Part shown: positions 1,296 through 46,074 of the stretch, one piece after another
Numbering within the stretch: position 1 is the stretch's first letter
Layout: each line of letters opens with the position of its first letter
Virus record (IMG/VR): IMGVR_UViG_3300032235_000373
Span: 1 to 46,803 of that record
DNA: 46,803 nucleotides
Strand: one strand, 5' to 3'
Origin: a virus
Made by a program: the position numbers and the translations under genes
Notes under the pieces: model-generated
What the model saw: only the letters and a program-made list of their open reading frames with translations
Database searches by the model: none
What the model was told of the DNA's origin: nothing

Positions 1296-1303
1296 AATAA
1301 ATA
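1296..1303 (-). promoter_or_regulatory. Late-type box TATTTATT
   Basis: In the sense of the downstream gene the sequence reads TTCTATTTATTATAGTATG. The box ends 5 nt before the ATG of the gene at 1290. It is a one-base variant of the TATTTATA box found before other structural units. Confidence 0.5.
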
Positions 1304-1343
1304 GAAAGCTAACGATTTTCTATTATTATAAACAAAAAACATT

Positions 1344-3176
1344 TTAATATGTAGTCGTTCCTAAAGTTTTAGTACGTACTTTTATGTCCACATTAGGGAA
1401 TCTAATTTGAAAAATTTGATTAGATTTCATATTAATGGTCATATCAAATTGTTGAATTTCTTTTGTAGATGCAACTTTGTATGTTTGGGAAACTTCAGAA
1501 AGTGAATAATCTCCACCAGTTTTTCCAAAAACACGTATATCAACAACGTTTACAACACCGGTAACATTACCAATTTCTCTCATTAAATCACCAACAAATA
1601 ATGGGTCACCCATTTTTCGTTTTTCAATAGCAAAGAAAGTAATTACATTTTGAATTGTTGTCTTAACAATATCGGTTGTGGTTGAATTTTTATCTGTAAT
1701 TAAATCAATTTCTAATGCCAAATCAATTACCTCACCACTTTCGATATCAATATAATCATTAATCATTCTATACTCTGAAAGATAATTAATGATATTATTT
1801 TTTAATGTGTTAGATACCACATCGGTTAAATTACCATTATCATCATATGACAATAATTTTACTCTAACTTTGTTATCTTCTTCCATCACATTTACTTTGG
1901 CGGGTGCACCGAACGCTCCCGGCATAGATTCAATTAATGATTTATAGTCATTTAATGTTACAGCCCTGTTTTGTGCTGCAAAATTATATGCAATCATATT
2001 TCTCAATTCTTCAATTGTTGGTTGGTCAGAACCTCCAACTGCCGGTGTTACGTTACTTACACGTAATGATTGTTCAACTTGTGAATTAATTGATGATAAT
2101 GGACCTGTAATATTAAATTCAACGTTTTCAATGTTAGTGATTACATCAACACCTAAATTGGAATCTTTTCCACCACCAATACGATATCTTACAAATAATG
2201 TTGTATTTGATTTAGGTATTGTACCTAATGACATATTATTTAGATAAGTTCCTAAATTAACTTTCATCGAACCATTCATATAATCATCAAGATTATCTAA
2301 TGGGTCAACTGTACCTGAACCAAATGTAAGTGAAAAATAACTTTCCGGAGTGAATTCTGTAATAAATTTATTTCTTACTGACACATAAGTTCCTGCCTTA
2401 AAATTATCTTTATCTGATGCCGAAGTAGGGTCAGGTAAAAATATTTTATCTTCAATTAAACTTTTAACTTCATACCACTTATTGTTTGTTGATTCAAATT
2501 CAGAACTTGTAGGGTTAGCACCAAAATTTGTTCCTTCTTTATGAATAACAGAAGTAACACCTAATACGTTTTGTTCAGGAAGGTACATCTTTAAGAATGG
2601 TTTTTGGTCTAAATCAGATATTACTCTTCTATAGATTCTTGTAGCACCATTTACAACAGCATCTCTTTTTGTTATTGTGTATGAAATTAATGTATTGTTA
2701 CTATCAAAATTTGGTATTTTCAATCTATTTGGTTCACCTTTACTATTAAAAGGATTTGAGAAATCAATATCTTCTAATGTTTCAAATATTTGACCTGCAC
2801 CTGATACTTGAGCACCTGCCTTTAAAACTCCAAGATATCTTTCATCTTCTTTATCACCACGAACAGGTACATTTACTGAGAAATCACATAATGCAACCGA
2901 TGGTCTATTACCAGGTATCTTTATACCATATGTTTTTGCAATATGAAATAATGATTGTCTTTGTTGTGCAAAATCCAACATAGTTTCTTGCCAAACTCTA
3001 TCAATATGGAAGTGTAAGTTATCAGCAACCGCAGCGTTTAAGTCCAATAATACAGAGAATATTGACGCGTCATTAGTGTTTTTTACTAAGTCAGGATAAT
3101 ATTCTTTTGTTAAGTTTACTAATTCTTGTCTTAATCCCGCAAAGTCTCTTGTTGCGTATGAAATCTTTTTTGCCAT
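1344..3176 (-). CDS. Baseplate wedge protein, T4 gp6-like (Baseplate_J family)
   Basis: The product is 610 aa; T4 gp6 is 660 aa. The N-terminus (RDFAGLRQELVNLTKEYYPD, then DASIFSVLLDLNAAVADNLHFHID and QRQSLFHIAKTYGI) is the conserved gp6/Baseplate_J opening, in which the chain spans the wedge and packs against gp25. The middle contains the beta-rich J-type domain, and the C-terminal third has GDLMREIGNVTGVVNVVDIRV, typical of the family's end. In T4, gp6 dimers join the wedges into the inner baseplate ring. The ATG at 3176 lies 1 nt after the gp25 stop, so the two are translationally coupled, as expected for partners. Confidence 0.85.
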   Translation of the reverse strand: MAKKISYATRDFAGLRQELVNLTKEYYPDLVKNTNDASIFSVLLDLNAAVADNLHFHIDRVWQETMLDFAQQRQSLFHIAKTYGIKIPGNRPSVALCDFSVNVPVRGDKEDERYLGVLKAGAQVSGAGQIFETLEDIDFSNPFNSKGEPNRLKIPNFDSNNTLISYTITKRDAVVNGATRIYRRVISDLDQKPFLKMYLPEQNVLGVTSVIHKEGTNFGANPTSSEFESTNNKWYEVKSLIEDKIFLPDPTSASDKDNFKAGTYVSVRNKFITEFTPESYFSLTFGSGTVDPLDNLDDYMNGSMKVNLGTYLNNMSLGTIPKSNTTLFVRYRIGGGKDSNLGVDVITNIENVEFNITGPLSSINSQVEQSLRVSNVTPAVGGSDQPTIEELRNMIAYNFAAQNRAVTLNDYKSLIESMPGAFGAPAKVNVMEEDNKVRVKLLSYDDNGNLTDVVSNTLKNNIINYLSEYRMINDYIDIESGEVIDLALEIDLITDKNSTTTDIVKTTIQNVITFFAIEKRKMGDPLFVGDLMREIGNVTGVVNVVDIRVFGKTGGDYSLSEVSQTYKVASTKEIQQFDMTINMKSNQIFQIRFPNVDIKVRTKTLGTTTY

Positions 3177-3177
3177 T

Positions 3178-3630
3178 TTAAATGTTGATAATTACAAAAT
3201 CCGAAGATGTAAATGCTCCGTTATTAACCGTGTATTCTATTTTAACCACCGCAGTATATGGTTTAGTTGAAGCGTCAGATACTCTGAATAGTCTTTCATC
3301 TTCATCTTGATTAAATGAACGTGTTTCATCAGGGTCATCTTCCGCTGACATAACATCCAATCTTGTAATGTCAAGATTTGGGATGTATTTTTTAACTGAA
3401 TCTCTAATTTCACCTTCAATTAAACCAAATGTTACCGCATCGTTTTGGTCAAAGATATATTGATATAGACGGGTACCAAAATCAGGTAAGAAATATCTCG
3501 AACCTTTTTTAGTTAATAATAGATGAATAAGGTTTGTTCTAATTTCTCTTTCAGGTGAATTTGTCATTTTAACAAAACTACCATCACGACTTTCTCTGAA
3601 AGGAAATTCTATTCCATATTTTACTGCCAT
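3178..3630 (-). CDS. Baseplate wedge protein, T4 gp25-like (GPW/gp25 family)
   Basis: From the ATG at 3630 the product is 150 aa (MAVKYGIEFPF...). An upstream in-frame ATG at 3648 would add MFIFID, but the late box (3634-3641) lies inside that extension, so 3630 is preferred. The family signature is clear: SPEREIRTNLIHLLLTKKGS followed by RYFLPDFGTRLYQYIFD, including the EIR sequence conserved in gp25 and its type VI secretion homologue TssE. The protein sits at the sheath-baseplate junction and nucleates sheath assembly. Residues 95-125 form an acidic loop. It heads a two-gene unit with gp6. Confidence 0.88.
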   Translation of the reverse strand: MAVKYGIEFPFRESRDGSFVKMTNSPEREIRTNLIHLLLTKKGSRYFLPDFGTRLYQYIFDQNDAVTFGLIEGEIRDSVKKYIPNLDITRLDVMSAEDDPDETRSFNQDEDERLFRVSDASTKPYTAVVKIEYTVNNGAFTSSDFVIINI

Positions 3631-3633
3631 ATC

Positions 3634-3641
3634 TATAAATA
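3634..3641 (-). promoter_or_regulatory. Late-type box TATTTATA before gp25
   Basis: In the sense of gp25 it reads TATATTTATAGATATGG. The exact box ends 3 nt before the chosen ATG, in the gap after the terminator of the replication operon, so the gp25-gp6 unit needs its own promoter here. Confidence 0.6.
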
Positions 3642-3663
3642 TAAACAATATAGAAATGGTAAT

Positions 3664-3700
3664 AAATAAAAAAATCCCGACATTCGCCGGGATTTTCTTT
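3664..3700 (-). terminator. Intrinsic terminator of the replication/nrd operon
   Basis: Perfect 9-bp inverted repeat AAAATCCCG (3671-3679) / CGGGATTTT (3688-3696) with an 8-nt loop. Read on the minus strand the stem is followed by a T-rich run, so it ends transcription just after nrdA (stop at 3722). On the plus strand it is followed by TCTTT, so weak bidirectional action is possible. Confidence 0.85.
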
Positions 3701-3721
3701 ATACTGATGTATTATAATTTA

Positions 3722-12000: not shown

Positions 12001-12008
12001 CAAATATA
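12001..12008 (-). promoter_or_regulatory. Bacteroidetes-type -7 box TATATTTG of the replication operon
   Basis: Minus strand TATATTTG matches the Bacteroidetes consensus TAnnTTTG and lies 26 nt before the SSB ATG. No clear TTG is found about 20 nt upstream, because that region is the terminator hairpin of the preceding unit. The position after a terminator and before the first replication gene supports it. Confidence 0.6.
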
Positions 12009-13074: not shown

Positions 13075-13278
13075 TTAATCTTGTAATAATTGTCTACCGT
13101 CGTTGGTAATATATTTTTTATTTATTCTTTCGACTATTCCGTCTTTTTCTCTGATAGTATAACATTCTCCTGTTACCATATCACACTCTTCTCTTTCCAT
13201 TCCATCGTTAGATGTGTTTCTAACTTGTTTTGGAGTTAAGAATTGGTCCATTGCGTTGTTAATTCTTGAATTATTCAT
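13075..13278 (-). CDS. Small unknown protein, first gene of a late unit
   Basis: The product is 67 aa: MNNSRINNAMDQFLTPKQVR, then an acidic middle with REECDMVTGECYTIREKDGI. The two cysteines frame a turn (CDMVTGEC) that could be a knuckle or disulfide, and the C-terminus ends YITNDGRQLLQD. No family is recognised. A late box lies 11 nt before the ATG, and the stop is 3 nt before the next gene, which supports it as real despite its size. Confidence 0.7.
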   Translation of the reverse strand: MNNSRINNAMDQFLTPKQVRNTSNDGMEREECDMVTGECYTIREKDGIVERINKKYITNDGRQLLQD

Positions 13279-13289: not shown

Positions 13290-13297
13290 TATAAATA
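13290..13297 (-). promoter_or_regulatory. Late-type box TATTTATA
   Basis: In sense orientation it reads GATATTTATAATAAAAATG. It ends 11 nt before the ATG at 13278, in the 40-nt gap after the giant hub gene. The longer context GATATTTATA is shared with the boxes at 30981 and 41880. Confidence 0.65.
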
Positions 13298-19138: not shown

Positions 19139-19451
19139 AATATAATTTATACAACTCTACTCCTCTTTTATAATCTTGTAAAGAGGTTGTTAATGGAAAT
19201 GGAATTCTAATATATGAATTGTCAGGTATTTCAAATTCAAGACTACTTACCGTTGGATTTGCTTGTAATATTAACCAACCATACAGCGGTGAATTATAAA
19301 ATTCTTGTGAAATTTTATCTAATCTGTCTTTTCCTTTTTTATATTGATGATATTTGTCTGTTCCCTTTATTGGTAATTCAACACCCGGTACTATTTTAAA
19401 CTCACCATCAATTAAAAAATCAACATACCTGTTGTAATATTGCCTACTCAT
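19125..19451 (-). CDS. LysM/gp53-like baseplate protein
   Basis: The product is 108 aa. The core KGKDRLDKISQEFYNSPLYG, then WLILQANP, and the later DNSYIRIPFPL follows the LysM pattern (D.L..Is..fY....yGWLI..AN....i.....i.IP) used by T4 gp53 and P2 gpX-type tail proteins, which sit between hub and wedge. The ATG overlaps the stop of the 1599-aa gene by 4 nt, and the stop overlaps the hub start by 14 nt. The three genes form one tightly coupled baseplate unit. Confidence 0.65.
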   Translation of the reverse strand: MSRQYYNRYVDFLIDGEFKIVPGVELPIKGTDKYHQYKKGKDRLDKISQEFYNSPLYGWLILQANPTVSSLEFEIPDNSYIRIPFPLTTSLQDYKRGVELYKLYYGEQ

Positions 19452-27766: not shown

Positions 27767-27774
27767 TATAAATA
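27767..27774 (-). promoter_or_regulatory. Late-type box TATTTATA (proximal) of the tube gene
   Basis: In sense orientation it reads ATATATTTATAAGAAG. It ends 35 nt before the ATG, leaving an A-rich leader of usual length. Confidence 0.65.
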
Positions 27775-30980: not shown

Positions 30981-30988
30981 TATAAATA
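30981..30988 (-). promoter_or_regulatory. Late-type box TATTTATA of the sheath gene
   Basis: In sense orientation it reads AAAGATATTTATAATAAAAC. It ends 39 nt before the ATG. On the other strand a TATCTTT heptamer (30987-30993) overlaps its upstream edge, and the same heptamer is repeated before the small gene at 31068. Confidence 0.7.
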
Positions 30989-32474: not shown

Positions 32475-32987
32475 TTATACTCCTCTAAATTCAGTTTCTT
32501 GTGCCGGCGCACATGTTATTGTTCTATAGAATGGTTTGTAACCAAACATACTATGTTTTCCATCTGAAACTATTTTACCATCGTTAGTGACTTGATAGTA
32601 TCTAACCCTTTCTTCAGATTCCGCATATCCAATAAAATCACCATATTTTATATCCACACCCAATTCTTGTAAATGTTTGATATAAACTGATATTGTAATA
32701 TTACCCGGCTCATTGAATTTAATCAATCCGGATTTATATGTTTTATTTGTTGGTGCATCTATTTTAACCAATCCGTTAAATTCTACAGGTGGGAAATATT
32801 TAATTTGGTCCTTACCAACCTCACCATATACATCGTCAGTCGTAGTTCTTGTTGTATCAACACGATATAAAACCAACTTCATATTCAAATCTCCATGTAG
32901 ATACTCTGAACCCATTTGGACGTTCAAATCAAAATCATCATTTGAAAGGAATTTAGATAGTCTTGTGATTGGTAATTTGTTTTCCAT
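32475..32987 (-). CDS. Neck protein, T4 gp14-like
   Basis: The product is 170 aa; T4 gp14 is 256 aa. Shared layout: an N-terminal segment with VLYRVDTTRTTTDDVYGEVG, then YFPPVEFNGLVKID, FNEPGNITISVYIKHLQELG, IKYGDFIGYAESEERVRYYQ and FGYKPFYRTITCAP. gp14 with gp13 forms the collar between portal and tail. A late box lies 5 nt before the ATG, and it is coupled to the gp15-like gene. The assignment rests on pattern and neighbourhood. Confidence 0.65.
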   Translation of the reverse strand: MENKLPITRLSKFLSNDDFDLNVQMGSEYLHGDLNMKLVLYRVDTTRTTTDDVYGEVGKDQIKYFPPVEFNGLVKIDAPTNKTYKSGLIKFNEPGNITISVYIKHLQELGVDIKYGDFIGYAESEERVRYYQVTNDGKIVSDGKHSMFGYKPFYRTITCAPAQETEFRGV

Positions 32988-32992: not shown

Positions 32993-33000
32993 TATAAATA
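32993..33000 (-). promoter_or_regulatory. Late-type box TATTTATA before the gp14-like gene
   Basis: In sense orientation it reads TACTATTTATAAGGATATGG. It ends 5 nt before the ATG, in a 50-bp divergent gap shared with the SNF2 gene. Confidence 0.6.
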
Positions 33001-33020: not shown

Positions 33021-33028
33021 TATTTATA
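33021..33028 (+). promoter_or_regulatory. Late-type box TATTTATA before the SNF2 gene
   Basis: Plus strand TTATTATTTATATTATAAAT. The box ends 9 nt before the ATG at 33038 and is in the sense of that gene. Confidence 0.5.
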
Positions 33029-33037: not shown

Positions 33038-34789
33038 ATGGAAATAATGATTCCCGAAATAGAGGCGAGAAATATACTTTTATCATATGAAGGGTCTAAT
33101 AATCAATTATTAGATTGGAAGAAAAAATTCACAGAGCTTAAAAGTTTTAAACTTACACGACCACAATCAGAATATGTACAAAAATATCATACTGTGGTAC
33201 CAAAGGTTGCAAGAAAATATATTAACATTGTGAGTACATTTGGTGAAAAACTTGCCGACGATAAATTACTACCAACAGTACCCGAAAAAATTTGGTGTGA
33301 AAAGTTATTATGTGAATCCGATAAGGCGTATCACATTTGGGGTAAATTATTTGAAAACGAACAACTTAGTGCTATGTGGTTACCAAAGGCAGCTATTATG
33401 CAGGAAGAAAAGAAACTAAATCGTGTAATTGATTATTCAAAATATGGTAGTCGTCCACCAATGGACCACCAAAAAATTGCAATCGAAAAACTATTAGCAA
33501 ACAATAAATTCATTTTAGCCGATGATATGGGACTTGGTAAAACAACATCAGCGGTTATTGGTGCTCTTGAGAGTGAAGCAAAAAAGATTTTGATAGTATG
33601 TCCCGCTTCATTAAAAATAAACTGGGAGAGAGAGATTAAGAACTACTCAGACCGACGTGTACTAATTGTCGAAGGACGTAAATGGGGTTCGACATTTGAC
33701 TTTTATATTATTAACTATGATATCATTAAAAATTACCACTCGACAGATAATTCTAAAGATAGTGATGACTATAAGTTATTGGTTAATGCCGGTTTTGACT
33801 TGGCAATCGTAGATGAAGCTCACTACATTTCAAATGCAACCGCAAACAGAACAAGATTGTTAAATGACGTACTTGACCAAATCCCAAAAGTTTGGTTATT
33901 AACAGGTACACCTATGACATCAAGGCCAATTAACTATTTCAACTTATTAAAGATTGTTGAATCTCCGTTAACATTAAATTGGCAATCATATGTTCGTAGA
34001 TATTGTGCCGGTTATCAATTTAGAGTTGGTAATCGTAAAGTATGGAATACAAACGGTGCAAGTAATTTAGATGAACTTCGTGAAAGAACAAAGAATTTAG
34101 TTCTTCGTAGAATGAAAACTGACATTCTTGATTTACCTGAAAAAATTGTTACACCGGTATTCGTTGAACTTAATAGTAAAATGTACGATGAGGAATTAGA
34201 AGAATTTGCACGTATCACCAATGATAAAAAGAATGATGAAACCATTACAGTTACATTAAATCGTTTAATGAAAATTAGACAATTAATTTCTTACGAAAAA
34301 ATTCCATATACTTGTGAAATAATTGACAAATGTATTGAACAGGGTAAAAAGGTTATTGTTTTAACCAATTTTACTATGACATTGGATATGTTACATGAGA
34401 AATATAAAAAGAACTCAGTAACACTTGACGGACGTATGCATAAAGATAAACGTCAGGAAAATGTTGATAGATTTCAAACCGATGATAAAATAAAGGTATT
34501 CATAGGAAATATTAAAGCTGCGGGTGTTGGTATTACATTAACCGCCGCTGAGGTTGTTATTATGAATGACTTATCATTTGTACCTGCAGACCACTCTCAA
34601 GGTGAAGATAGAGCGTATAGATATGGACAGAAAAATAGTGTACTTGTTTACTATCCTGTATTTGAGAATACTATTGAAAAAATTATCTATAATATTCTAC
34701 AGAAGAAAAAAGGTGTCATCGACCAAGTTATGGGTGACGGTGAATATTCTGAAACTTTTGGTAAAGACTTATTAAAGCAACTTATTTAA
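33038..34789 (+). CDS. SNF2-family DNA-dependent ATPase/helicase
   Basis: The product is 583 aa, SF2 SNF2/SMARCAL1-like. Motifs: I DDMGLGKTT (162-170), Ia ILIVCPASLKINWEREI, II VDEAHYIS (DEAH at 259-262), III LLTGTPMTSRP, IV VIVLTNFTMTLDML, V GNIKAAGVGITLTAAE, and VI SQGEDRAYRYGQK. The N-terminal 140 residues are a separate domain without a recognised family. SMARCAL1-type enzymes remodel forks and anneal strands; in T4 the SF2 enzyme UvsW acts in recombination and origin control. The gene lies on the plus strand between minus-strand neck genes and ends overlapping a small minus-strand gene by 8 nt. An ATG three codons downstream is an alternative start. Confidence 0.93.
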   Translation: MEIMIPEIEARNILLSYEGSNNQLLDWKKKFTELKSFKLTRPQSEYVQKYHTVVPKVARKYINIVSTFGEKLADDKLLPTVPEKIWCEKLLCESDKAYHIWGKLFENEQLSAMWLPKAAIMQEEKKLNRVIDYSKYGSRPPMDHQKIAIEKLLANNKFILADDMGLGKTTSAVIGALESEAKKILIVCPASLKINWEREIKNYSDRRVLIVEGRKWGSTFDFYIINYDIIKNYHSTDNSKDSDDYKLLVNAGFDLAIVDEAHYISNATANRTRLLNDVLDQIPKVWLLTGTPMTSRPINYFNLLKIVESPLTLNWQSYVRRYCAGYQFRVGNRKVWNTNGASNLDELRERTKNLVLRRMKTDILDLPEKIVTPVFVELNSKMYDEELEEFARITNDKKNDETITVTLNRLMKIRQLISYEKIPYTCEIIDKCIEQGKKVIVLTNFTMTLDMLHEKYKKNSVTLDGRMHKDKRQENVDRFQTDDKIKVFIGNIKAAGVGITLTAAEVVIMNDLSFVPADHSQGEDRAYRYGQKNSVLVYYPVFENTIEKIIYNILQKKKGVIDQVMGDGEYSETFGKDLLKQLI

Positions 34790-35003: not shown

Positions 35004-35011
35004 TATTTATA
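35004..35011 (+). promoter_or_regulatory. Late-type box TATTTATA before the gp13-like gene
   Basis: Plus strand AAAGTATTTATAAGAATAAA. The box ends 14 nt before the ATG at 35026 and is oriented with this plus-strand structural gene. This shows that the sense-strand form of the box is TATTTATA on both genome strands. Confidence 0.65.
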
Positions 35012-35025: not shown

Positions 35026-36150
35026 ATGGCATCATCAATTATTACTACCGAAGAAAAAGATAAGTTATACACTCAAGTGTTTCATTTATTAGGTATGCCT
35101 GTTCGTGGTATTGAACTTACCGAAGAACAGATGGATACTTTTTTGGAATTATCTTTATCAGAATACGAGCAATACGTATCAGATTGGTTAATCGAATCAC
35201 AATGGTCCGCACTTGCCGGATTAAACTTGGACACGGCATCTTTAACACGAGCATTCACAACAAGAAGTTTAGATTATGAAACTCAATTTACACATGCATA
35301 TTCTAAAATCGTCGGATTACAGACAGGTGGTGATAGTGAATTGAAAAAAGACTTCTTTACCGTTTCAGGTGGTACACAAACATATATTTTACCTGCAGGT
35401 CGTGAAATCAATGAGTTATTATGGTTTACACGTGCTGAATTAACAGATTCAATTATTGACCCATTCTTAGGTGGATTTGGTGGTATTGGTGGTGTGGGTT
35501 TTGGTGGTATTGGTGGTTTTGCACAAATTGGTTCTGCGGGTTCTTATTTTATGATGCCGGCTAACGACCTTTTATTGAGAATGCAAGATAGAAGTATTAA
35601 GAATAGATTGATTGGTGGAGATTTAACATATAGAATTACTGCGGGTCCTGAAGGTACCAAAATTGTACACTTATATAATGTGCCGGGTGGTAGATTTGAC
35701 TTTGGTTCAACACAATCAAACAATTACCAAGTTTGGTATTGGTATTATGATACTAACACTAAAGATAGAGATGAGTGTCTTGCTAAAAATAAAGATATTA
35801 TTAGATTACCATCGGATGTACAAACAGAAGAATTAAAATGGTCTGACTTAAATCAACCCGCACAAAACTGGGTTAGAAAATATCTTATAGCATATTCCAA
35901 AGAAGGTTTAGGTAGAATTTGGGGTAAATTCAGTGGAGACCTTAAAGTTCCTGATTCTGAATTAAAATTAGATTACACTTCATTACTTACAGAAGGTAAA
36001 GATGAAAAATCTAAATTGGTTGAAGAATTAATGGCAAGACTTGAAAGACTTCGCCCCGACAAACTTCTCGAAAGAAAAGGTGCCGAGGCTGAAAATCTTA
36101 ATAAGTCATTGAAATATAGAGCATTCCAAACTCCAATTACATCGTTCTAA
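35026..36150 (+). CDS. Neck/head-completion protein, T4 gp13-like
   Basis: The product is 374 aa; T4 gp13 is 309 aa. The N-terminal helical region (EEKDKLYTQVFHLLGMPVRG, then IELTEEQMDTFLELSLSEYE) matches the gp13 opening. The middle carries YILPAGREINELLWFTRAEL, and the C-terminal helices include WVRKYLIAYSKEGLGRIWGK. A Gly-rich insertion (residues 149-172, several GGIGG/GGFGG units) interrupts the central domain. gp13 joins portal and gp14 at the neck. The stop overlaps the convergent DNA polymerase stop by 4 nt. Confidence 0.68.
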   Translation: MASSIITTEEKDKLYTQVFHLLGMPVRGIELTEEQMDTFLELSLSEYEQYVSDWLIESQWSALAGLNLDTASLTRAFTTRSLDYETQFTHAYSKIVGLQTGGDSELKKDFFTVSGGTQTYILPAGREINELLWFTRAELTDSIIDPFLGGFGGIGGVGFGGIGGFAQIGSAGSYFMMPANDLLLRMQDRSIKNRLIGGDLTYRITAGPEGTKIVHLYNVPGGRFDFGSTQSNNYQVWYWYYDTNTKDRDECLAKNKDIIRLPSDVQTEELKWSDLNQPAQNWVRKYLIAYSKEGLGRIWGKFSGDLKVPDSELKLDYTSLLTEGKDEKSKLVEELMARLERLRPDKLLERKGAEAENLNKSLKYRAFQTPITSF

Positions 36151-39044
36151 ACTTCAACTGCGTGTAACACTGCATCAGTATCGGTATTCCCGATAATTTC
36201 GTCTTCATTACTTACAGTACTCTCTGCTTGTAAAAGTAGAACCTTTCTATTATGGTCTACCCAATATTGGTCGGCAAGCTCCAAACTATCTTCAACATAC
36301 ATAAAGAATGGGTCACGACCTACTTTATTCCAAAAGACAACCTCACTATCCGATAAGGTCATAACCTCATCAAACTTATCTTGACCACTTTCTTTAAGTG
36401 GATGACCATTAACAAGTTCACATTGTAACTTGGTAAAGTATTGTCTATCCTTAGGGTCTTCAATAAGAATGTCTTCACGAATGCTTGGACTAAACGCAAC
36501 TAATAAAGGTTCCACACGTTTATTAAAGTTTGTTAAATAACGAGGAACATTATAATCACCCAATAAATCGGGATTATTTGTAATCTCCTTTTCATCAATC
36601 ATATAACAATTAACTTCAATATAACCATCCGGCATTGGGTATCCGTTTTTTGCAGTGAATTCTTCTTGTTGTTTCTTTGTGGGTTTTGTAATTTTCTGAA
36701 CATCACCCGAAGATTTCTTTTCACCGTTATTCACATAATAGATGGTATCACCAAGACCGGCGGGATAATCACTCATCATGATTAATTCCATATGTGCTTG
36801 TCTTGACATAAGAGACCCCGATTTAGTGGTTTTCTTTACATACTTCTTATACTCATCAATCGATTGTTTAACACGAGCCTTATTGGCAATCTTTGATAAT
36901 GGAATCTCTTTATTGTAAATCTTTTCTACATAATCATAATACAACTCAACAAATGATAAACCATCACCATTCAACAAGTACTTTAAACCCTCATCCAAAA
37001 ACTCCACAACATATTGTTGTAACTTCTTTGATTTAATGGTGTTACCGGTCAATTTGATTTTCTCTTTACCTTTCTTAATCAACTTGATGATATAGTTCTT
37101 ACGAGATACGTTAATACAAGATGGTGCGGTGTAGTCAATATCAAGACCCATTTCGTTTCGCATAAAGATATCATTGAATTCGGCGGTGTGTGCTTCAATA
37201 CCACGATATTCTTTACCTTCCTTAACAAGTTCATTAAGACCTTTACCAATGTATACAGCATCTGCTGCACTTTCAGGTGTTTCAAAGTTCACACCGTCTG
37301 TATCCATTACAAGTGGTTTATATCCTTTTTTCATATAGAACATAATCATCATACGAAGACATTGACGACCGATACAAGTAATCGTTTCACCCGAATCCAT
37401 CTCACCCCAAGGGAATACATGTGGTGCAGATAATGAACCAAAGTATGCGTTAATGAAAATCTTGATTGGTAATTGTTTACGGTCGTACATCTCGGCAGCA
37501 ACGGGGTCACTATCCTTTAATTCACCGGCAAGGTGTTTGTATTTAATACGAATGTTACGGAAATACTTCAACATAGATTTCTGTACACCCATAACATCAC
37601 AAGCAGGAAACACATCATACACCAATTGAATTGATGGATATAAGGATGAGTAGTCAAACTTCACAATGTTCTTTGCGTAACCCACATTTAATAAACGAGA
37701 CAAACCACCAGTGAATGGTCGTTTTGAATCTTTTGCTGGTATTGCTAAATTGTTTTCATATGACCATGCTAACATGATAATCTTCCATAATGTAGCGGTA
37801 CCCATTGTGGCTATCCTCTCATATGTTGTTGGTACAAGTTTTGACAATAAGAATGTTGACTGAGAGAATGAGTCATCAACAATCATTGTCTCATAAAGGT
37901 CATCATCAAGATATTGTTCGACAATCTTTCTACCTGTCCATATTTCAAACTTACCGGGGAATCTTGTAAGTAAATCCTGAGTACCCGGTTCACCAATCAT
38001 TTTGTAACCACCCGTTTTTGGATTTACATAATAACTCTCATTCTCAAGATATATTTCAGAAATCTTATTACCTTTTACATAAACCCGATTAGGTTTTTCT
38101 TTCTCCAAATATTGAGTGATATACTTCAAACCCCAAGATTTAATCTCTGAGTTGATGGCTTGCGCTCTACGAACAGAGTGTGCAATATCAATAATATTAA
38201 AACCCCAAATCACATGTTGAACATAATCCTCCATTTCGTTGGCAAGTTTCAATACACCTTTCTTTTCTTTCATCCCCGTACCCGTCAAGATTTTAGTTAA
38301 ACCTTGAACATCGACACCTAAAATTTCTGCACGCTTTAAGATAAATGGAAAGTCAAAGAATGCGGAGTTATAACCGGCAACGATTGTTGGTTTTAGTTCT
38401 CTAATTAAATTAAAGAATCTTTCAATACATTTCTTTTCACCATCCTCACCAAATGCGGGAATTGTTTCTTGTAGACCACGGTTATCCTTAACTCCAATCA
38501 AAATGATATTACAAGTTTCAGGGTCTAAACCTGTGGTCTCAATATCGAATACAAATCGATACACATCAGCATAATCCTCAATACCTTTGAATAGTCGTTT
38601 TCTTGTTTGAACAAGATATTGTTCTACCGGTGATAAGATAGTAAAACATTGTTTTGTGTGTTCACCCCAAGGGTCAATACCTCCCGTCTTAAAGAAACTG
38701 ATAAGGTCGGTGTATGTCTTAATACTTTTAACCAAGAATTTCATACCAGATTCAAGTCGTTCATCACCGTGAGTATCCAACTTATCAATGATGATACCGT
38801 ACTTACCCATCATCTGTTTTTGTTTTTGTTTGGACCCACCGTAGAAATTAAACTCGGTTAAGTCACCAACCCACAAAAATGGTGTGAATGAATCTGATTT
38901 AACAATTTTACCCTTTTCAGGGTCTTGAATGATTTTTGAAATCATGTTTGTGGGGTAGTCGTACTCGACACCAACGATGTATTTCTCATCGTCACCCCCG
39001 TTCAGGAAGTTCTCGATAACCTCCTGTGAGATTACTTCTTTCAT
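36147..39044 (-). CDS. Family B DNA polymerase, T4 gp43-like
   Basis: The product is 965 aa; T4 gp43 is 898 aa. The 3'-5' exonuclease sites are present: ExoI FDIETTGLD (D167, E169), ExoII AGYNSAFFDFPF (N226, D231), and a YxxxD candidate for ExoIII at Y378/D382. Polymerase motif A is KFDYSSLYPS (D464), motif B QLPIKIFINAYFGSL (about 524-538), and motif C MDTDG (D581, D583), where Gly replaces the usual Ser after the second Asp. No intein is present. It replicates the phage genome. It is separated from the replication operon and has its own promoter region at 39045-39131. Confidence 0.95.
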   Translation of the reverse strand: MKEVISQEVIENFLNGGDDEKYIVGVEYDYPTNMISKIIQDPEKGKIVKSDSFTPFLWVGDLTEFNFYGGSKQKQKQMMGKYGIIIDKLDTHGDERLESGMKFLVKSIKTYTDLISFFKTGGIDPWGEHTKQCFTILSPVEQYLVQTRKRLFKGIEDYADVYRFVFDIETTGLDPETCNIILIGVKDNRGLQETIPAFGEDGEKKCIERFFNLIRELKPTIVAGYNSAFFDFPFILKRAEILGVDVQGLTKILTGTGMKEKKGVLKLANEMEDYVQHVIWGFNIIDIAHSVRRAQAINSEIKSWGLKYITQYLEKEKPNRVYVKGNKISEIYLENESYYVNPKTGGYKMIGEPGTQDLLTRFPGKFEIWTGRKIVEQYLDDDLYETMIVDDSFSQSTFLLSKLVPTTYERIATMGTATLWKIIMLAWSYENNLAIPAKDSKRPFTGGLSRLLNVGYAKNIVKFDYSSLYPSIQLVYDVFPACDVMGVQKSMLKYFRNIRIKYKHLAGELKDSDPVAAEMYDRKQLPIKIFINAYFGSLSAPHVFPWGEMDSGETITCIGRQCLRMMIMFYMKKGYKPLVMDTDGVNFETPESAADAVYIGKGLNELVKEGKEYRGIEAHTAEFNDIFMRNEMGLDIDYTAPSCINVSRKNYIIKLIKKGKEKIKLTGNTIKSKKLQQYVVEFLDEGLKYLLNGDGLSFVELYYDYVEKIYNKEIPLSKIANKARVKQSIDEYKKYVKKTTKSGSLMSRQAHMELIMMSDYPAGLGDTIYYVNNGEKKSSGDVQKITKPTKKQQEEFTAKNGYPMPDGYIEVNCYMIDEKEITNNPDLLGDYNVPRYLTNFNKRVEPLLVAFSPSIREDILIEDPKDRQYFTKLQCELVNGHPLKESGQDKFDEVMTLSDSEVVFWNKVGRDPFFMYVEDSLELADQYWVDHNRKVLLLQAESTVSNEDEIIGNTDTDAVLHAVEV

Positions 39045-39104: not shown

Positions 39105-39116
39105 CAAATATAAATA
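39105..39116 (-). promoter_or_regulatory. Overlapping host-type and late-type promoter boxes of DNA polymerase
   Basis: Minus strand carries TATTTATATTTG. TATATTTG (39105-39112) matches TAnnTTTG, with TTTG 20 nt upstream as in Bacteroidetes promoters. The late box TATTTATA (39109-39116) overlaps it. The host-type reading has the better support because its -33 element is present. Confidence 0.6.
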
Positions 39117-39771: not shown

Positions 39772-41856
39772 TCAATAATCATCCCACCAGTTATAATCGT
39801 TTGGTGCCCATTCAATATCATCATCATCTAATATTAGAGATGTTATTGTTTCTTCACTAACTAAGAAAAATTCGTTTCCTTCGCTACCATTAAATTTAAC
39901 AAAGAATCTATCACCAATTCCGTAAGCGTCATCATATCCGCTGTACGCTGTTTGGTGAGATTTTAATAGTTGACCAGAAAAATTATAAAGATTAATTACT
40001 GTCACACTACTAATATCATCTTGATAAACAAGCATAATTTTAGTTTCACCGACCAAAGTAGATTTATAGTTATGAGATGGAAATTGGAAATCAGAGGTTA
40101 TTCCCGTTGTTGATAAAACTCTAAATCCTGTACCTGAACCCTCACTATAAAGAAGCATAACTTCAGATTCTTGGAATGTATCGGTATAGTACGTATTAGG
40201 TGTGTCTGTGTTGTCATAATAGTCTGTTGATGTGAATCCAGTCGAACCACTATAAACATAATAACCCTCATCACCTTCATCCGTATCAATCGCAAGATAT
40301 CCTAATCTTCCTTGTGAATTCATTGAATAACTATACGAACTATTTAATGTTTTACTAACTCTGTCCATTATAGAACCGTTCACATTTATTAATAACGCAT
40401 CAAGGTAATTATTATCATTAGTTAAAATAACATAGACAGTTCTATCGCCTAAATAATAATTGTTCACATTGGTAATACCTGAAATAGGTATATTGGTAGT
40501 TGTAATTGTTCCACCTGTTGTTGAAATCGTTAATATTTCAAAAAAATTACCTGTACTAATAGGTGCTCTATATATGTTACTTAATTGACCATAAGAACTA
40601 ATTTGAATTTCTGTATTATTTGCTGCGGTGTATGTGTTAAATGTTGTTTGATTGTCTAACATATACATAATGTCACAATAACTAACCACATTTCCAATAG
40701 GTGTACCACTTATATCGTTGTAAAAAGTGATAACAACACCACCGGTTTTTTCTGCACTATCGTTTGCCCAAAAATCCTCATCTCCATCCATATTAAAGGA
40801 CGAAAAATTAGCACCTCTAACGTGAGTTGTCTGTCTTAATGTTTCTGTTTCACCATTATAATGTATGATTTTATAATCAACTTCATCGTCATTATAGTTG
40901 TAGTACGTTACACAATATTTGGTACTTCCTAAAAAATCATCATTTCTATCGGTATATGTTGCACCTGTTAATGAAATTGTTTGTAAAGTTGTTCCACTTG
41001 CGTTACATATTTGAAGATTTGTGTATGTATTACCAGATTGTGTTTCAACAACTATAAAATCAGTATTTGGCATCATTTTATGTCTAACTTGTGTTCCATC
41101 AGTCCAAGTTTTGAATGATGTTGTTGTACCATCATTACCGTTGATGAGATATGATTGACCGTTACCATTATCGTTCCATTGACCCACTTCATTCTTTTTA
41201 ACAATAAATGTATTGTTCGAAGTAACCGCATACCAATCATATTCAATATCAATATAGTGTGTTTCAGGGTCCCAAGTATATGTGAATACATCTGTACCGT
41301 TTGAATATGTTAAAACACCATTTTCACTATCTTCAAATGTTACTATTCTACCATCTAATGCACTTCCATCATAACTATCCGTCGCTCCCGAATATCTACC
41401 AATTTCCGAACCACTTTCGTTGGTGAAAATTACTAATCTTTCACCACCGTTAGAACTCGAACCAAATTCATACATATATCCCGAATCTTGTAGTGGATAA
41501 ACATTTGAATTGGACCAATATGATGAATCAACACCTAAGTCGATAATTTCTGCAGTAAAATCTGAGAAATTTAAGAATGCTGCTCCGTAGTTATTCGAAC
41601 CTACCATTCTATCAACAAACACGGCTGTTTGTGGGTTGTTAGATGGTTGTGGTACGTTTACAGTGTATGTATAATCATACTCAGGTAAATAAATCGAGTA
41701 GTCACCATACGGATGTGCCGTGATGTTATTAAAAGGAATCACCTTAGTTCCAAGGTTTTGAGTTGTACCCGATGTTGACCCTGTATATGGTGTAAACGTT
41801 ACTGTTGCCGTTTTACCACTTAGATTAGTACTTGATATTCTTGCTCCTACTGCCAT
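39772..41856 (-). CDS. Fibre-region virion protein with repeated beta blades
   Basis: The product is 694 aa, rich in Tyr, Thr, Ser, Asn, Asp and Gly, with low Lys/Arg. It has an N-terminal beta domain (residues 1-75; RISSTNLSGKTATVTFTPYT and GDYSIYLPEYDYTYTVNV). Many degenerate 50-60-residue units follow, alternating strands with phrases such as 'SYLINGNDGTT', 'TYTNLQICNASGTTLQT' and 'SVTVINLYNFSGQLLKS'. This suggests a beta-propeller or WD-like adhesin. The C-terminus is Trp/Asp-rich (DDDDIEWAPNDYNWWDDY). No enzyme motif is seen. A receptor-binding role is inferred from its place in the fibre cluster. Confidence 0.6.
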   Translation of the reverse strand: MAVGARISSTNLSGKTATVTFTPYTGSTSGTTQNLGTKVIPFNNITAHPYGDYSIYLPEYDYTYTVNVPQPSNNPQTAVFVDRMVGSNNYGAAFLNFSDFTAEIIDLGVDSSYWSNSNVYPLQDSGYMYEFGSSSNGGERLVIFTNESGSEIGRYSGATDSYDGSALDGRIVTFEDSENGVLTYSNGTDVFTYTWDPETHYIDIEYDWYAVTSNNTFIVKKNEVGQWNDNGNGQSYLINGNDGTTTSFKTWTDGTQVRHKMMPNTDFIVVETQSGNTYTNLQICNASGTTLQTISLTGATYTDRNDDFLGSTKYCVTYYNYNDDEVDYKIIHYNGETETLRQTTHVRGANFSSFNMDGDEDFWANDSAEKTGGVVITFYNDISGTPIGNVVSYCDIMYMLDNQTTFNTYTAANNTEIQISSYGQLSNIYRAPISTGNFFEILTISTTGGTITTTNIPISGITNVNNYYLGDRTVYVILTNDNNYLDALLINVNGSIMDRVSKTLNSSYSYSMNSQGRLGYLAIDTDEGDEGYYVYSGSTGFTSTDYYDNTDTPNTYYTDTFQESEVMLLYSEGSGTGFRVLSTTGITSDFQFPSHNYKSTLVGETKIMLVYQDDISSVTVINLYNFSGQLLKSHQTAYSGYDDAYGIGDRFFVKFNGSEGNEFFLVSEETITSLILDDDDIEWAPNDYNWWDDY

Positions 41857-41879
41857 AGTTTGTTATTTTTGTGTTTTTA

Positions 41880-41887
41880 TATAAATA
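41880..41887 (-). promoter_or_regulatory. Late-type box TATTTATA of the 694-aa fibre gene unit
   Basis: In sense orientation it reads AAGATATTTATATAAAAAC. It ends 23 nt before the ATG at 41856, in the gap after the 1022-aa adhesin gene. Confidence 0.65.
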
Positions 41888-41928: not shown

Positions 41929-44900
41929 TTATAATCCGTATTTTGATTTGTCCGTATTGTAATTACCCAAAACCTCCGATGAGGTTAATGCTTTATTATA
42001 CATTCTTACTATACCAATTTTACCATCAAACCACTGTGGATATTCACCATTATTATATGAACCTATATATAAATTCGTGGTGGTGTTTAATATACTTGAT
42101 AAACTATGACTTACACTACCTATACTTGTACCATTAACAAATGTTTCAAATGTTTTGGTGGCAATGTTAGTGAATACATAAACTAGTTGATACCAAGTAT
42201 CAATTGTTGCTGTGTGATTTGTACTATTTTGAAATAATGTTGCTCCAGAACCAGAACCCGAACCATATTGTGCGTAAAATGTTGAACTTGTGGTTCTAAT
42301 ACTATAACCAACATTTTGTGTTAATCCACCTGCGTTAAATTTACCAAGTACAACGTCATTACCTGCTACGGATTGATTAACCCAAACTTCAATTGTATAA
42401 TCACCACTTTGTGGTTCTAATCCTATACTATCGGTAACTGAAATTTGAGAAGAGGTACCATTAAATGTAAAGTATGGTGATGTAAATGTTATATTTGACA
42501 TCGTTCCGTGTCTACCCTGACCAGTCAAATCGGTAATTGTTGTTCCGGTACCTGGGTATGATGCCGTTCTAGATGGGTCATAATGTAAAACTAAACCACT
42601 CGTTTCAACACAATTAATTGTTACCGACTTCGCAATAATATTTGAAGGATTTTCGGTCTCCCTTACAGCCACCCAATATGTTCCGCTTGAACCTATGATT
42701 ACAACTCCATTATTTCCACCAACTATAGGTGCCCAAAAAGTTGCATTAAGTGCACTATTTTCAGTAGTATGTATTCCTCCAGTATATTGGTAATTATTAG
42801 ATGCGGAGCCAACAAGATTACTTATACTAATTGAACCGTCATTCTGACAGATACCCGAAATTGAGAAATCTAACGGTGTCCGACTTGGTGTTGGTGTAAC
42901 TGTATTTGTTGGAGTTACTGTTTGTGTTGGTGTGATACTTGGTGTAACGGTATTTGTTTGTGTATTTGTTGGAGTTACAGTATTTGTTGGTGTAACTGTA
43001 GGTGTTGGTGTTGGTGCACAATCTACTAATATTGATTTTACAACGATATTTGATTGGTTGTTTCTATCTCTTACTGCAACCCAATATGTTTTAGTGATAT
43101 AAGGTTCCCCAACCCCACTTGTAACATAACTATTCGGGTTTGGAACGCCAATCCATTGAGTTTCATTTAATGCTTCAGATTCGGTATCGTACTCACCTGT
43201 ACCTCTATCATATTGACCTGAACCACCGGTATGGTTATATGTATAAACAACACCACCATTATCACAAGCCGACCCAATTGAGAAATCTATAGGACTTTCT
43301 GTCGGAGTAGGTGTTGGTGTACTCGTTACAGTTGGAGTTGGTGTTTCAGTTGATGTAGGTGTTGGTGTTACTGTTGGTGTAGGGGTTGGGTCAGGTGTCC
43401 CAATAACACAAACATTAGTAACCCCTTCATTAGGTGTTAAAAGAGCAAAGAATATATGTAATGGTTGTGTTACAGGGTTTGATGATGTATAAATTAAACT
43501 ACCATTTTTATAGTATTTAACATTTGTTCCATCATATTCTACTTTCCATATGTCAGTTGATAAATTTTCCATACTACCCGGAACTGTTGCCTGACCACCA
43601 TCTTCATAAATCTCTAAGAAGCCATTTTGTACATAAAGTCCATATCTTATATTTTGATATGTTTGTTCATATGAAGTTGGGTTAGTAGAAAAACCACCCA
43701 TAAGATAGTTACCATTTGCTGAAGTTTGGAATGTTACAGATACGGGATTAGTATATGTTTCTGTAGAATATGCTGACGAAGTCCATCCACCATCTGGTCC
43801 ACCAGTTGCACTATTATAAGTTGTGGTTGCGTCAACATTATTAAAGGTAAATGTATCACAATAAACAGATGTTGCACTTGGTGTGACAGTATTTGTTGGT
43901 GTTATTGTTGGTGTAATTGTATTTGTTGGTGTTATAGACGGTGTTGGTGTTGGTGACGGTTCAATAAATCTTGAAGATAAATAATAATAATGTTGTCTTA
44001 TTTCATAAATTGATAGTTTTCTATCATAGTAATACATATTGGCAACATACCCGGTAGGTTGTCCTTCGATAGAACCCCAAGTATCGTGACTATTACCACC
44101 AGCACCATAATCAACGGTACCAACTTGGGTATCGTTAACATAGAAAATACTACTTGAAGAATCCCCAACAACTGTTATTTGAGCCCAAGTATCAATTATA
44201 GATGAAATATCATATCCCGAATTGCTAAAAATATTGTTATCGTTATCATAATAACCTAAATTATTAGATGAAATATCCACTAAAATTGGATGGTCATTTG
44301 GTGTGGTTCTAAATAATGTTCTATATGTTGTGTTAATATTTCTAAACTTAACCCAAGTTACGTAAGTATAACCTGAAGTTGGTAATGTAGGACCAGAACC
44401 ATTTACTCTAATGTATGTTGTTGAAACTTCATCGTTACAATCAAAACATTTTATAGTATTTAATTCGGTATATGGTGTGTTTGTTAATGTATGATTAAAA
44501 CCTCCAGTGATATCGTAAACTGTAGTACCTGTACCAGGATAACTTGAAATATCATTTGCATCAAGTTGAATTACCAATCCCGAAGTTACTAATGAAGGTG
44601 TAACTGGAGTAAATGAAGGCGTTGGTGTTAGTGTTTGTGTTGGTGTTATAGTTGGTGTGGGTGTTGGACTAATTAATGGTTGTAATATTGTATATTCTAA
44701 ATCGTTAACTGGGATTAAAGTATACGTACTATCATTATTTGGTATTAATGTATAAATTGTATCATTATTTGGTAATAAAACATTATTAATATCATTGTCG
44801 GGTAATAATATATATTGAATATCATTATCAACTATAAACGTATTAAATAAGTCATTATCGGGTATAAAAATATACGTTAAATCATTATTTGGAATGATTG

Positions 44901-44997
44901 TATAATTAAAATCATTTGAGGGAATATTGATACCAGTATCCCTAAATGAATTACCAATTGGTTTAAAATTACTTGTAAATAACGAAATTAATGGCAT
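41929..44997 (-). CDS. Modular tail fibre/adhesin with Thr-Pro linkers and LamG-like lectin domains
   Basis: The product is 1022 aa. Order: residues 24-105, eight exact 10-residue repeats with Asn-Asp every tenth residue (INIPSNDFNY type). Then a Thr-Pro linker (108-132), LamG/concanavalin-like domain 1 (about 140-345, GLVIQLDANDISSYPGTGTT), a linker, and a lectin-like beta domain (about 380-535). A long linker follows, then two homologous about 85-residue domains ending TYWVAVRDRNNQSNIVVKSI and TYWVAVRETENPSNIIAKSV, split by a linker. LamG-like domain 2 closes the chain (about 820-1022, GLVLHYDPSRTASYPGTGTT). This is probably surface-glycan recognition. Its start is 1 nt after the preceding gene's stop. 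Confidence 0.78.
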   Translation of the reverse strand: MPLISLFTSNFKPIGNSFRDTGINIPSNDFNYTIIPNNDLTYIFIPDNDLFNTFIVDNDIQYILLPDNDINNVLLPNNDTIYTLIPNNDSTYTLIPVNDLEYTILQPLISPTPTPTITPTQTLTPTPSFTPVTPSLVTSGLVIQLDANDISSYPGTGTTVYDITGGFNHTLTNTPYTELNTIKCFDCNDEVSTTYIRVNGSGPTLPTSGYTYVTWVKFRNINTTYRTLFRTTPNDHPILVDISSNNLGYYDNDNNIFSNSGYDISSIIDTWAQITVVGDSSSSIFYVNDTQVGTVDYGAGGNSHDTWGSIEGQPTGYVANMYYYDRKLSIYEIRQHYYYLSSRFIEPSPTPTPSITPTNTITPTITPTNTVTPSATSVYCDTFTFNNVDATTTYNSATGGPDGGWTSSAYSTETYTNPVSVTFQTSANGNYLMGGFSTNPTSYEQTYQNIRYGLYVQNGFLEIYEDGGQATVPGSMENLSTDIWKVEYDGTNVKYYKNGSLIYTSSNPVTQPLHIFFALLTPNEGVTNVCVIGTPDPTPTPTVTPTPTSTETPTPTVTSTPTPTPTESPIDFSIGSACDNGGVVYTYNHTGGSGQYDRGTGEYDTESEALNETQWIGVPNPNSYVTSGVGEPYITKTYWVAVRDRNNQSNIVVKSILVDCAPTPTPTVTPTNTVTPTNTQTNTVTPSITPTQTVTPTNTVTPTPSRTPLDFSISGICQNDGSISISNLVGSASNNYQYTGGIHTTENSALNATFWAPIVGGNNGVVIIGSSGTYWVAVRETENPSNIIAKSVTINCVETSGLVLHYDPSRTASYPGTGTTITDLTGQGRHGTMSNITFTSPYFTFNGTSSQISVTDSIGLEPQSGDYTIEVWVNQSVAGNDVVLGKFNAGGLTQNVGYSIRTTSSTFYAQYGSGSGSGATLFQNSTNHTATIDTWYQLVYVFTNIATKTFETFVNGTSIGSVSHSLSSILNTTTNLYIGSYNNGEYPQWFDGKIGIVRMYNKALTSSEVLGNYNTDKSKYGL
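44683..44928 (-). repeat. Coding array of eight 30-bp repeats (decapeptides)
   Basis: The array encodes residues 24-105 of the adhesin. Asn-Asp recurs at 28, 38, 48, 58, 68, 78, 88 and 98, giving [IL][PV]xNDxxYx[ILF] each time. The DNA copies share ATCATTATTnGG-like cores on the plus strand. The strict period of 10 suggests a regular beta structure or shaft rather than a random-coil linker. Confidence 0.8.
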
Positions 44998-44998
44998 A

Positions 44999-46063
44999 TT
45001 AGAATGTTGTTAATTGTCCGAATACTTTCCAAGTACCATTTATTTTTAAAATACTAAACGATACAATATCATAAGAATTTGGATTACCTGACGGTAATGA
45101 ACCACCTGACCATATAATTGTCACCGGACCCTCATCATCCGTGTTTATTTTAAGAGAATCAATCATATATGCGGTTGCTCCCTGCTCAATCATCACAGTT
45201 AAACCAATACCCTTATTATTAGTAGTAGGAACATTTACTAAATCAATTGTAGTGTTACCTGTTACACCTGTAACATATAAAATTGAACCACTTGTGAAGT
45301 CATGAGTATAACCCGTTGTTGGGTTATTTAATGGTATAATTGTTTCAGATGTTGAACCTAAATTTGTAATTCCATTTACATTAATGTTATGTAATAAATT
45401 AAGACTACCACTAAATTCATATTCATAACCGTCAGATACTGAACCTGTATTAAAACTAATTGTTGTTCCTGTATGTAAAGTTATATGTGGAGTTTGCCAA
45501 TTACCCATGGTAAATAACTTAACCTCAGATGGATGTTGAACCCCACCTAATGTTCCAACATACATATCTTTTCCTGAGTTAATTAAATAAGAATCGTTTT
45601 CCCAACCAACAGCACTACCACCATATCCTGATGAGTTAATACCCAAATCAACATAATGAATAACCTCACTACCATTGTTTGCGGTTAATACTAAATCCGT
45701 ACTGGCAAATGAACCACTATTAGTGTTTTTAATGTTTATTTGTGCGTAGTATGGATTATTCGCTTGAAAATATGCTATATTATAACTCCCACTATTTTGA
45801 ACATGTAATATTTCAGGTTGTATGTCTTGACCACTTTGAAATGACCCGGTACCAATAATTAAACTTGGTATTTTTCCTGTTATTGTTAAATCACCATTAA
45901 TTGTTTGGCTCCCCGTAAATGAGTGAGAACCACTATCAACTAATGTTTGTCTTAAAGTAGATAATGTTGATTGATATGTTGTGCCACCATGTACAACCGC
46001 AGTTACACCACTTAATGGTGGATTTGTCGATGTAGATAATTGGGATATTTTTTTACTTGCCAT
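44999..46063 (-). CDS. Tail fibre/virion structural protein
   Basis: The product is 354 aa. The N-terminus MASKKISQLSTSTNPPLSGV, then VVHGGTTYQSTLSTLRQTLV, is the common phage fibre opening (KISQL...LP.V.gGtT.k.tls.l) that anchors the protein to the baseplate. A repeated SHSFTGSQTINGDLTITGKI segment follows. The rest is Gly/Ser/Thr/Asn-rich beta structure ending FSILKINGTWKVFGQLTTF, like C-terminal fibre heads. A late box ends 3 nt before the ATG. It is followed immediately by the 1022-aa adhesin. Confidence 0.72.
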   Translation of the reverse strand: MASKKISQLSTSTNPPLSGVTAVVHGGTTYQSTLSTLRQTLVDSGSHSFTGSQTINGDLTITGKIPSLIIGTGSFQSGQDIQPEILHVQNSGSYNIAYFQANNPYYAQINIKNTNSGSFASTDLVLTANNGSEVIHYVDLGINSSGYGGSAVGWENDSYLINSGKDMYVGTLGGVQHPSEVKLFTMGNWQTPHITLHTGTTISFNTGSVSDGYEYEFSGSLNLLHNINVNGITNLGSTSETIIPLNNPTTGYTHDFTSGSILYVTGVTGNTTIDLVNVPTTNNKGIGLTVMIEQGATAYMIDSLKINTDDEGPVTIIWSGGSLPSGNPNSYDIVSFSILKINGTWKVFGQLTTF

Positions 46064-46066
46064 TTA

Positions 46067-46074
46067 GATAAATA
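46067..46074 (-). promoter_or_regulatory. Late-type box variant TATTTATC
   Basis: In sense orientation it reads AACTATTTATCTAAATGG. It ends 3 nt before the ATG at 46063 and overlaps the 13-nt gap after the right-edge gene. Confidence 0.5.

Follow-up and report, generated by a model that had tools for sequence, protein, structure and literature searches.

T4 late promoters (TATAAATA; gp55/gp33/gp45) consist of a lone 8-bp -10 element that stands before structural genes and has no -35 signal, with gp55-dependent initiation ∼5 nt after the box. According to the extracts used of PMC2988020, these 8-bp boxes have their first base at -13, so that they span -13 to -6. In the T4 complex, as given in the portion of PMC7892883 drawn on here, A-12 stacks on Y97 of gp55, A-9 contacts N13 and H95, and A-8 bonds T99. 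Here we analyze a 46.8-kb virus record (IMG/VR IMGVR_UViG_3300032235_000373, positions 1 to 46,803; "the window" means this whole stretch) that has 32.5% GC, is T4-like by gene content, and carries the box TATTTAT, in its 8-bp form TATTTATA, upstream of genes and in their sense. Like the T4 element, the box is a lone 8-bp -10 element without a -35 signal before structural genes, and a gp55-type sigma factor is encoded, in this case in relatives. We consider TATTTATA most likely to be a late-promoter -10 element of the gp55 class with altered bases at -10 and -9, read by a phage gp55-like sigma factor. Host RNA polymerase carrying this factor (232 to 233 amino acids [aa] in close relatives) would recognize TATTTATA and, the factor being of the region-2 type, would need no -35/-33 contact; early genes would be served by host-type promoters, with TTG ∼23 nt before TAnnTTTG or TATATTTAG. 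The late timing of TATTTATA promoters is most likely, judging from gene function.

The box is a real and strong feature of the window. Sense TATTTAT occurs in 13 of the 19 gaps of ≥12 nt before genes (15 matches). The preliminary description had proposed comparison with shuffled sequence, and dinucleotide shuffles of the same gaps were far poorer (mean, 2.0; standard deviation, 1.4; maximum, 9 in 5,000). Among 17 noncoding copies, 15 are sense and 2 antisense to the next gene, while the 10 coding copies all lie ≥169 nt from the next start on their strand. The whole-window count is below the shuffled expectation (27 versus a mean of 39.5); enrichment is seen only in noncoding DNA, in the orientation of the gene that follows. 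All 12 gene starts named in the preliminary description have the box in the sense given, at 4 to 40 nt from TATTTAT. As it had also stated, the box is missing from tightly coupled internal genes (0 of 12 genes with an upstream gap of <12 nt have one in the gap) and from the SSB-nrdA run, where none occurs from 11974 down to 3722 and TATATTTG stands at the head instead. The six boxless gaps of ≥12 nt precede genes starting at 8511, 9991, 11055, 11974, 27128, and 39730. The boxes and contrasting elements are as follows.

1297-1303, minus strand: late box TATTTAT, 6 nt from the start of gene 1-1290.
3635-3641, minus strand: late box TATTTATA, with TATTTAT 4 nt from the ATG at 3630 of the gp25-like baseplate wedge gene.
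13291-13297, minus strand: late box, 12 nt from the start of gene 13075-13278.
24264-24270, minus strand: late box, 16 nt from the start of gene 19448-24247.
26233-26239, minus strand: late box, 4 nt from the start of gene 24279-26228.
27768-27774, minus strand: late box, 36 nt from the tail tube (gp19-like) gene 27243-27731.
27929-27935, minus strand: second TATTTATA, 197 nt from the tail tube gene, of unsure function.
30982-30988, minus strand: late box, 40 nt from the tail sheath gene 28014-30941.
32994-33000, minus strand: late box, one half of a divergent pair, 6 nt from gene 32475-32987.
33021-33027, plus strand: late box, other half of the divergent pair, 10 nt from the SNF2-type helicase gene 33038-34789.
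35004-35010, plus strand: late box, 15 nt from the head-tail connector-like gene 35026-36150.
41881-41887, minus strand: late box, 24 nt from the start of gene 39772-41856.
46068-46074, minus strand: late box, 4 nt from gene 44999-46063, within a 13-nt gap.
39110-39116, minus strand: TATTTAT, 65 nt from the DNA polymerase gene, overlapped by a host-type TATATTTG (39105-39112).
12001-12008, minus strand: host-type -7 element TATATTTG (contrast class), 26 nt from the SSB gene at the head of the SSB-nrdA run.
3662-3668, minus strand: TATTTAT within the T run that belongs to a terminator-like hairpin; probably a fortuitous copy.

The label "late" suits the structural genes that the box precedes but sits less well with the SNF2-type helicase gene at 33038, which also has one, and with the DNA polymerase gene, where the copy lies 65 nt away and is overlapped by a host-type element.

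The same box was found in relatives, whose loci came from a tail-tube search of viral contigs (80 loci) and a sigma search (80 loci), with some contigs supplying more than one locus; sense and antisense were counted in the 150 of the 160 loci that were ≥5 kb. They contain TATTTATA 521 times in sense, 19 times in antisense, and 151 times in coding DNA, raw counts that are not independent because contigs and loci overlap or are near-copies (e.g., G004/G005/G006 and G001/G012; the latter two look like near-copies, and G005 and G006 have an identical sigma). Sense exceeds antisense in 149 of the 150 loci, and the nonredundant boxes number 144. The preliminary description had called for motif discovery in the 60 nt upstream of genes in relatives, and an unbiased 8-mer ranking of that noncoding DNA in 14 genomes or contigs placed TATTTATA first in nine (the window, G001, G012, G008, G017, G018, G016, G005, and the isolated Flavobacterium phage immuto) and second, behind the overlapping ATATTTAT, in G006 and in Microcystis phage Mel-JY01. 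The T4 control gave TATAAATA first. In seven contigs, TATTTATA had 190 sense upstream matches, compared with a mean of 23 for the rest of its 56 anagrams. Distant immuto-like loci were picked by sigma (67 of 80 analyzed), and their sense/antisense counts were 72:5 at ≥70% sigma identity, 34:0 at 55 to 70%, and 67:18 at <55%. TATAAATA itself is antisense biased in the window group, which does not share the T4 sense consensus. Among the titles and abstract openings listed in searches of open-access literature, which did not cover the RM378 genome paper, none gave TATTTATA as a phage promoter.

The preliminary description had presented the box as the reverse complement of the T4 late box. The letters do coincide, but TATTTATA is better regarded as a same-strand T4-type box in which TT replaces AA at -10/-9, because TATAAATA and TATTTATA differ solely at positions 4 and 5. 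In the T4 register, A-12 and A-8 are kept and, unlike in T4, T stands at -10 and -9. In the sigma, Y97 is kept in every aligned TATTTATA user. At the T99 position, T is found in T4, PEi20, three cyanophages, a Pelagibacter phage, RAS14, and VP-1, and S in Aeh1, whereas TATTTATA users, LR756508, and RM378 have G, Q, or S. The N13 position, whose mapping rests on a weakly conserved N terminus, is N throughout the ATAAATA-type set apart from VP-1, which has S; in TATTTATA users, LR756508, and RM378, it is G, T, D, or R. H95 was also considered as a discriminator of box types and fails, being F in cyanophages. For ATAAATA-type phages besides T4, ∼40 kb of each was read (none for PEi20), and the signal was ATAAATA or CTAAATA, weak in S-CAM1, Aeh1, and VP-1.

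An unrooted tree of 24 sigmas separates nine ATAAATA-type rows from the other fifteen (100/100), with group labels that are partly assumed (the PEi20 box by assumption; S-CAM1, Aeh1, and VP-1 on weak signals) and with long branches for RM378, VP-1, and RAS14. Computed in this way, box type and sigma clade cosegregate, and the box change coincides with the deepest split of the gp55 tree. Since the residue pattern is tied to this one split, its link to the box change is only suggestive. Rhodothermus phage RM378 (NC_004735) has a related upstream motif: its top upstream 8-mers are TTATTTAA and TATTTAAA, and TATTTAA occurs 37 times in sense and 4 times in antisense. The tree places its gp55-like sigma on the side of the TATTTATA users, although this placement is unsure on a very long branch. 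It differs in having TATTTAA(A/T) instead of TATTTATA.

In relatives, Pfam Sigma70_r2 gives a weak match to the 232- to 233-aa protein, at an E value of 1 or better in 28 of 34 aligned gp55-like rows, and a separate strong match to a 271-aa protein. By phmmer, the 232-aa protein matches T4 gp55 (PDB 7d7c) at an E value of 9.6e-5; it also matches the PHROG late sigma at 2.7e-4. An iterated profile found one convincing gp55-like copy each in G002, G003, G006, G008, G016, G017, G018, LR756508, immuto, Mel-JY01, RM378, and T4, with a second immuto match at 0.005. This profile contains T4 gp55 itself, and its E value for T4 is consequently not independent, whereas the phmmer match is. The predicted model of the 232-aa sigma (mean predicted local distance difference test [pLDDT] score, 68.9) superimposes on gp55 with a Z score of 10.9 and a root mean square deviation of 3.1 over 103 aligned residues. 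Sequence and fold both relate the protein to gp55 as a region-2 sigma. The preliminary description had suggested searching for a gp55/gp33-like factor: a diverged gp55-like sigma is present in relatives (none was found in the window), but a gp33-like partner was not detected in the relatives searched.

In eight records, no TATTTAT occurs in the 120 nt upstream of the gene run bearing this sigma. The gp55-like sigmas of the group have a conserved C-terminal helical domain of ∼90 residues (141 to 232) that is not seen in T4 gp55, and most family sigma proteins end in GFLE-like residues, at the place where a gp55-family sigma would carry its sliding-clamp-binding motif. Modeled alone, the domain has a mean pLDDT of 79.1, with no Foldseek match at an E value of 0.001 or better and no VIA-align Z score of 5 or more; SigA region 4 scores a Z of 4.5, among unrelated rows, so that a sigma-4 identity is no more than possible. 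Directly after the sigma gene in the family, immuto, and Mel-JY01 lies a gene of 116 to 131 aa (L092, 2445-2825, and neighbors), and in six family contigs TATTTAT stands 4 to 5 nt before its ATG, a leaderless distance. This neighbor was considered as a gp33 equivalent and rejected: it has no informative family match and its own late box, and long, possibly structural genes follow.

Two promoter classes can be distinguished in these phages. A single 8-bp -10-like element stands before late or structural genes, lateness being judged from gene function only. As with T4-type promoters, it has no conserved -35 element, and it does not conform to the Bacteroidetes housekeeping pattern of TAnnTTTG with a TTG at -33. 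Upstream of 231 late boxes in 14 family contigs, no TTG peak near -33 is present (≤7 at any position upstream of -13), while the 137 TAnnTTTG boxes of the same contigs have TTG 23 nt upstream in 33 cases (mean per position, 3.5). In immuto, TTG lies 23 nt upstream of all 15 distinct copies of TATATTTAG, and just 3 of 25 late boxes have TTG at -24. Boxes of the two classes are also segregated: immuto 77-160 kb, which holds most annotated structural genes, contains none of the 20 TATATTTAG boxes of this phage but 25 of its 37 [AC]TATTTAT boxes, and of the boxes within 100 nt of genes in G006 140-180 kb, 32 are host type and 1 is late type. The phage-specific promoter class distinct from TAnnTTTG that was originally proposed is thus borne out by the 8-mer ranking and the missing -33 TTG. 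Two further observations concern these boxes. The 22-76 kb region of immuto (MW353175) contains 20 copies of the early promoter-like TATATTTAG, many followed by GTATCAATAATTAAAAC, and family late boxes show an excess of TTG six bases upstream (17 of 231; mean per position, 4.1).

These results bear on the alternative that host sigma reads the box as a variant of its housekeeping promoter (-7 element TAnnTTTG). Many boxes are preceded by A or TA, so that some read TATATTTAT, close to TATATTTG, and one window box overlaps a TATATTTG. Bacteroidetes housekeeping-type boxes also stand in front of other genes of the same phages; unlike the late box, they have the -33 TTG and a terminal G. The lack of a -33 TTG peak at late boxes, the division of box types in the structural region of immuto, and the occurrence of the box in a phage of the cyanobacterium Microcystis make this alternative unlikely.

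The position of the box relative to start codons is consistent with TATTTATA being a promoter. Genes of relatives were taken from our own open reading frame caller, which prefers the first ATG, and single box distances may for this reason be off. Nonredundant family boxes wholly upstream of genes (177 within 60 nt) number 0 at 0 to 2 nt and 14, 25, 11, 7, and 6 at 3, 4, 5, 6, and 7 nt, i.e., a floor of 3 nt and a peak at 3 to 5 nt. Among boxes at 0 to 7 nt, 0 of 71 lie at 0 to 2 nt, compared with a share of 0.36 for other A/T 8-mers (P, 2e-14). With coding DNA unmasked, TATTTAT occurs 0 times at 1 to 3 nt and 112 times at 4 to 7 nt from 1,146 distinct starts. Host-type boxes in the same phages have a floor of 4 nt (11 at 4, 3 at 5, and 0 at 0 to 3), which equals the box-to-start spacing in Flavobacterium johnsoniae, where probable promoters were defined by a spacing of 4 or 5 nt (PMC6847099, in the excerpts used). 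A transcription start ∼4 nt after the box would explain the distance pattern, and about a third of near-gene boxes (63 of 177) would then give leaderless or nearly leaderless mRNAs.

Many late mRNAs are probably leaderless or nearly so, as had been proposed from several boxes 3 to 5 nt before ATG, and the floor and peak of the distances point the same way. The boxes come as close as 3 nt to the ATG, unlike in T4, for which the closest box seen in the 8-mer analysis is 13 nt away. The 12 boxes within 60 nt of genes in Mel-JY01, a cyanobacterium phage, are all ≥8 nt away, eight of them at 27 to 40 nt, and leaderlessness may therefore track the host or lineage and not the box. Should late mRNAs prove leaderless, host translation of such messages would become important for phage production; beside this, leaderless host mRNAs are few in two flavobacteria, at 5.5% in F. 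psychrophilum (PMC9723704, portion consulted) and with leaders of >10 nt in 87% of predicted transcripts in F. johnsoniae (PMC6847099, same excerpts).

The distances also bear on whether the motif acts in RNA, as a translation or stability element. The box lies near the start codon, a few copies overlap a called ATG, and F. johnsoniae and other Bacteroidetes lack Shine-Dalgarno sequences (PMC6847099, as excerpted). Nevertheless, distances range from 3 to >40 nt with a floor, as expected if a promoter start must not pass the ATG, the floor resembles that of host-type promoter boxes in the same genomes, and the tightly coupled window genes have no box. An RNA element is accordingly very unlikely.

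Just as improbable is recognition of the box by the 271-aa RpoD-like sigma of several relatives, a protein with regions 2 and 4 that is separate from the gp55-like one. It is encoded (L129, 4277-5092, and homologues) only in six contigs, G004, G005, G006, G012, G016, and G018, and is identical in three of them. No copy was found among the genes called in immuto, Mel-JY01, or T4, and a sigma with region 4 should leave a -35/-33 signal, of which none is seen. Near its end (128638-128847), RM378 carries another Sigma70_r2 match, stronger than the first. Chance occurrence in AT-rich noncoding DNA, for which the low GC content and the unraised whole-window counts could be cited, is contradicted by the gap shuffles, the anagram control, and the sense bias in relatives, and its probability is negligible.

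A number of results weigh against TATTTATA being a gp55-class late promoter. With regard to the sigma factor, a 34-row sigma profile ranks gp55 first in the PDB, yet at an E value of 0.11, and the iterated profile found no gp55-like sigma gene in the window fragment. Foldseek gave no PDB match for the sigma model at an E value of 0.001 or better, and VIA-align ties gp55 with other sigma region 2 domains, so that the fold indicates sigma region 2 and not gp55 in particular. Among ten records (T4, Mel-JY01, LR756508, RM378, immuto, G006, G012, G016, G017, and G018), gp33 (PF16805) exceeds the cutoff only in T4, as does gp45 (PF02916) among the same records minus immuto (nine), absences that divergence could produce; one weak PF02916 match occurs in LR756508.

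With regard to the box, one six-locus subgroup of the immuto-like loci is weak (16 sense versus 11 antisense), and TATTTATA is outside the top eight 8-mers in those with ≥70% sigma identity despite its strong sense bias there, because a repeated early promoter dominates. In LR756508, a phage of 484 kb that encodes the sigma, the ranking gives no clear box or top motif (TA[CT]TTATA, 13 sense and 3 antisense). With regard to distances, one box lies 2 nt from a start in the wider 150-locus set, and with coding DNA unmasked, TATTTAT overlaps or abuts a called ATG 13 times (9 at -2 and 4 at 0). These copies are in G006, G008, G011, G017, and G018, nine as TATTTATG and four directly before ATG, and some look like misplaced starts: in 5 of the 13, an in-frame ATG 6 nt on would place the box at 4 or 6 nt, and 3 have a second box 4 to 5 nt before ATG. 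Five (three distinct sequences) are unexplained.

We tentatively propose a broader scenario, which is possible but less likely than its alternatives taken together. One ancient T4-like branch, with Bacteroidota and cyanobacterial hosts, may have switched AA to TT at -10/-9 together with its sigma; the C-terminal domain of the sigma may have replaced gp33 and clamp coupling; and the window group may start many of its late mRNAs at the ATG or beside it. If this reading of a single switch is true, leaderless translation would be a feature of late infection in the window's group. The box provides a simple rule by which late units can be located across a large group of T4-like phages, most of them uncultured, and, if read as proposed, represents a natural case of sigma and promoter changing together. 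Since it is known which T4 gp55 residues touch the bases that differ here (PMC7892883, portion drawn on), the change in specificity is directly testable.

The gene content of the window includes gp6-, gp25-, gp19-, and hub-like baseplate and tail genes, a DnaB-like helicase, a UvsX-like recombinase, SSB, and ribonucleotide reductase genes, the last recognized from translations. The best-listed named relatives of the sheath are Microcystis phage Mel-JY01, the uncultured LR756508, Pseudomonas phage pf16, and Flavobacterium phage immuto. The presence of TTG/TAnnTTTG boxes in the window group suggests a Bacteroidota host. The window DNA polymerase gene (36147-39044) matches family B, and its phage-collection matches are only Salinibacter and Nostoc/Anabaena/Dolichospermum phages (17 records), with no T4-like phages among them. 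Just above the SSB gene, 12051-12431 matches the PHROG "starvation-inducible transcriptional regulator." The window gene product of 41929-44997 (1022 aa) has repeated PTPT-rich linkers and may be a receptor-binding or adhesin-like tail protein.

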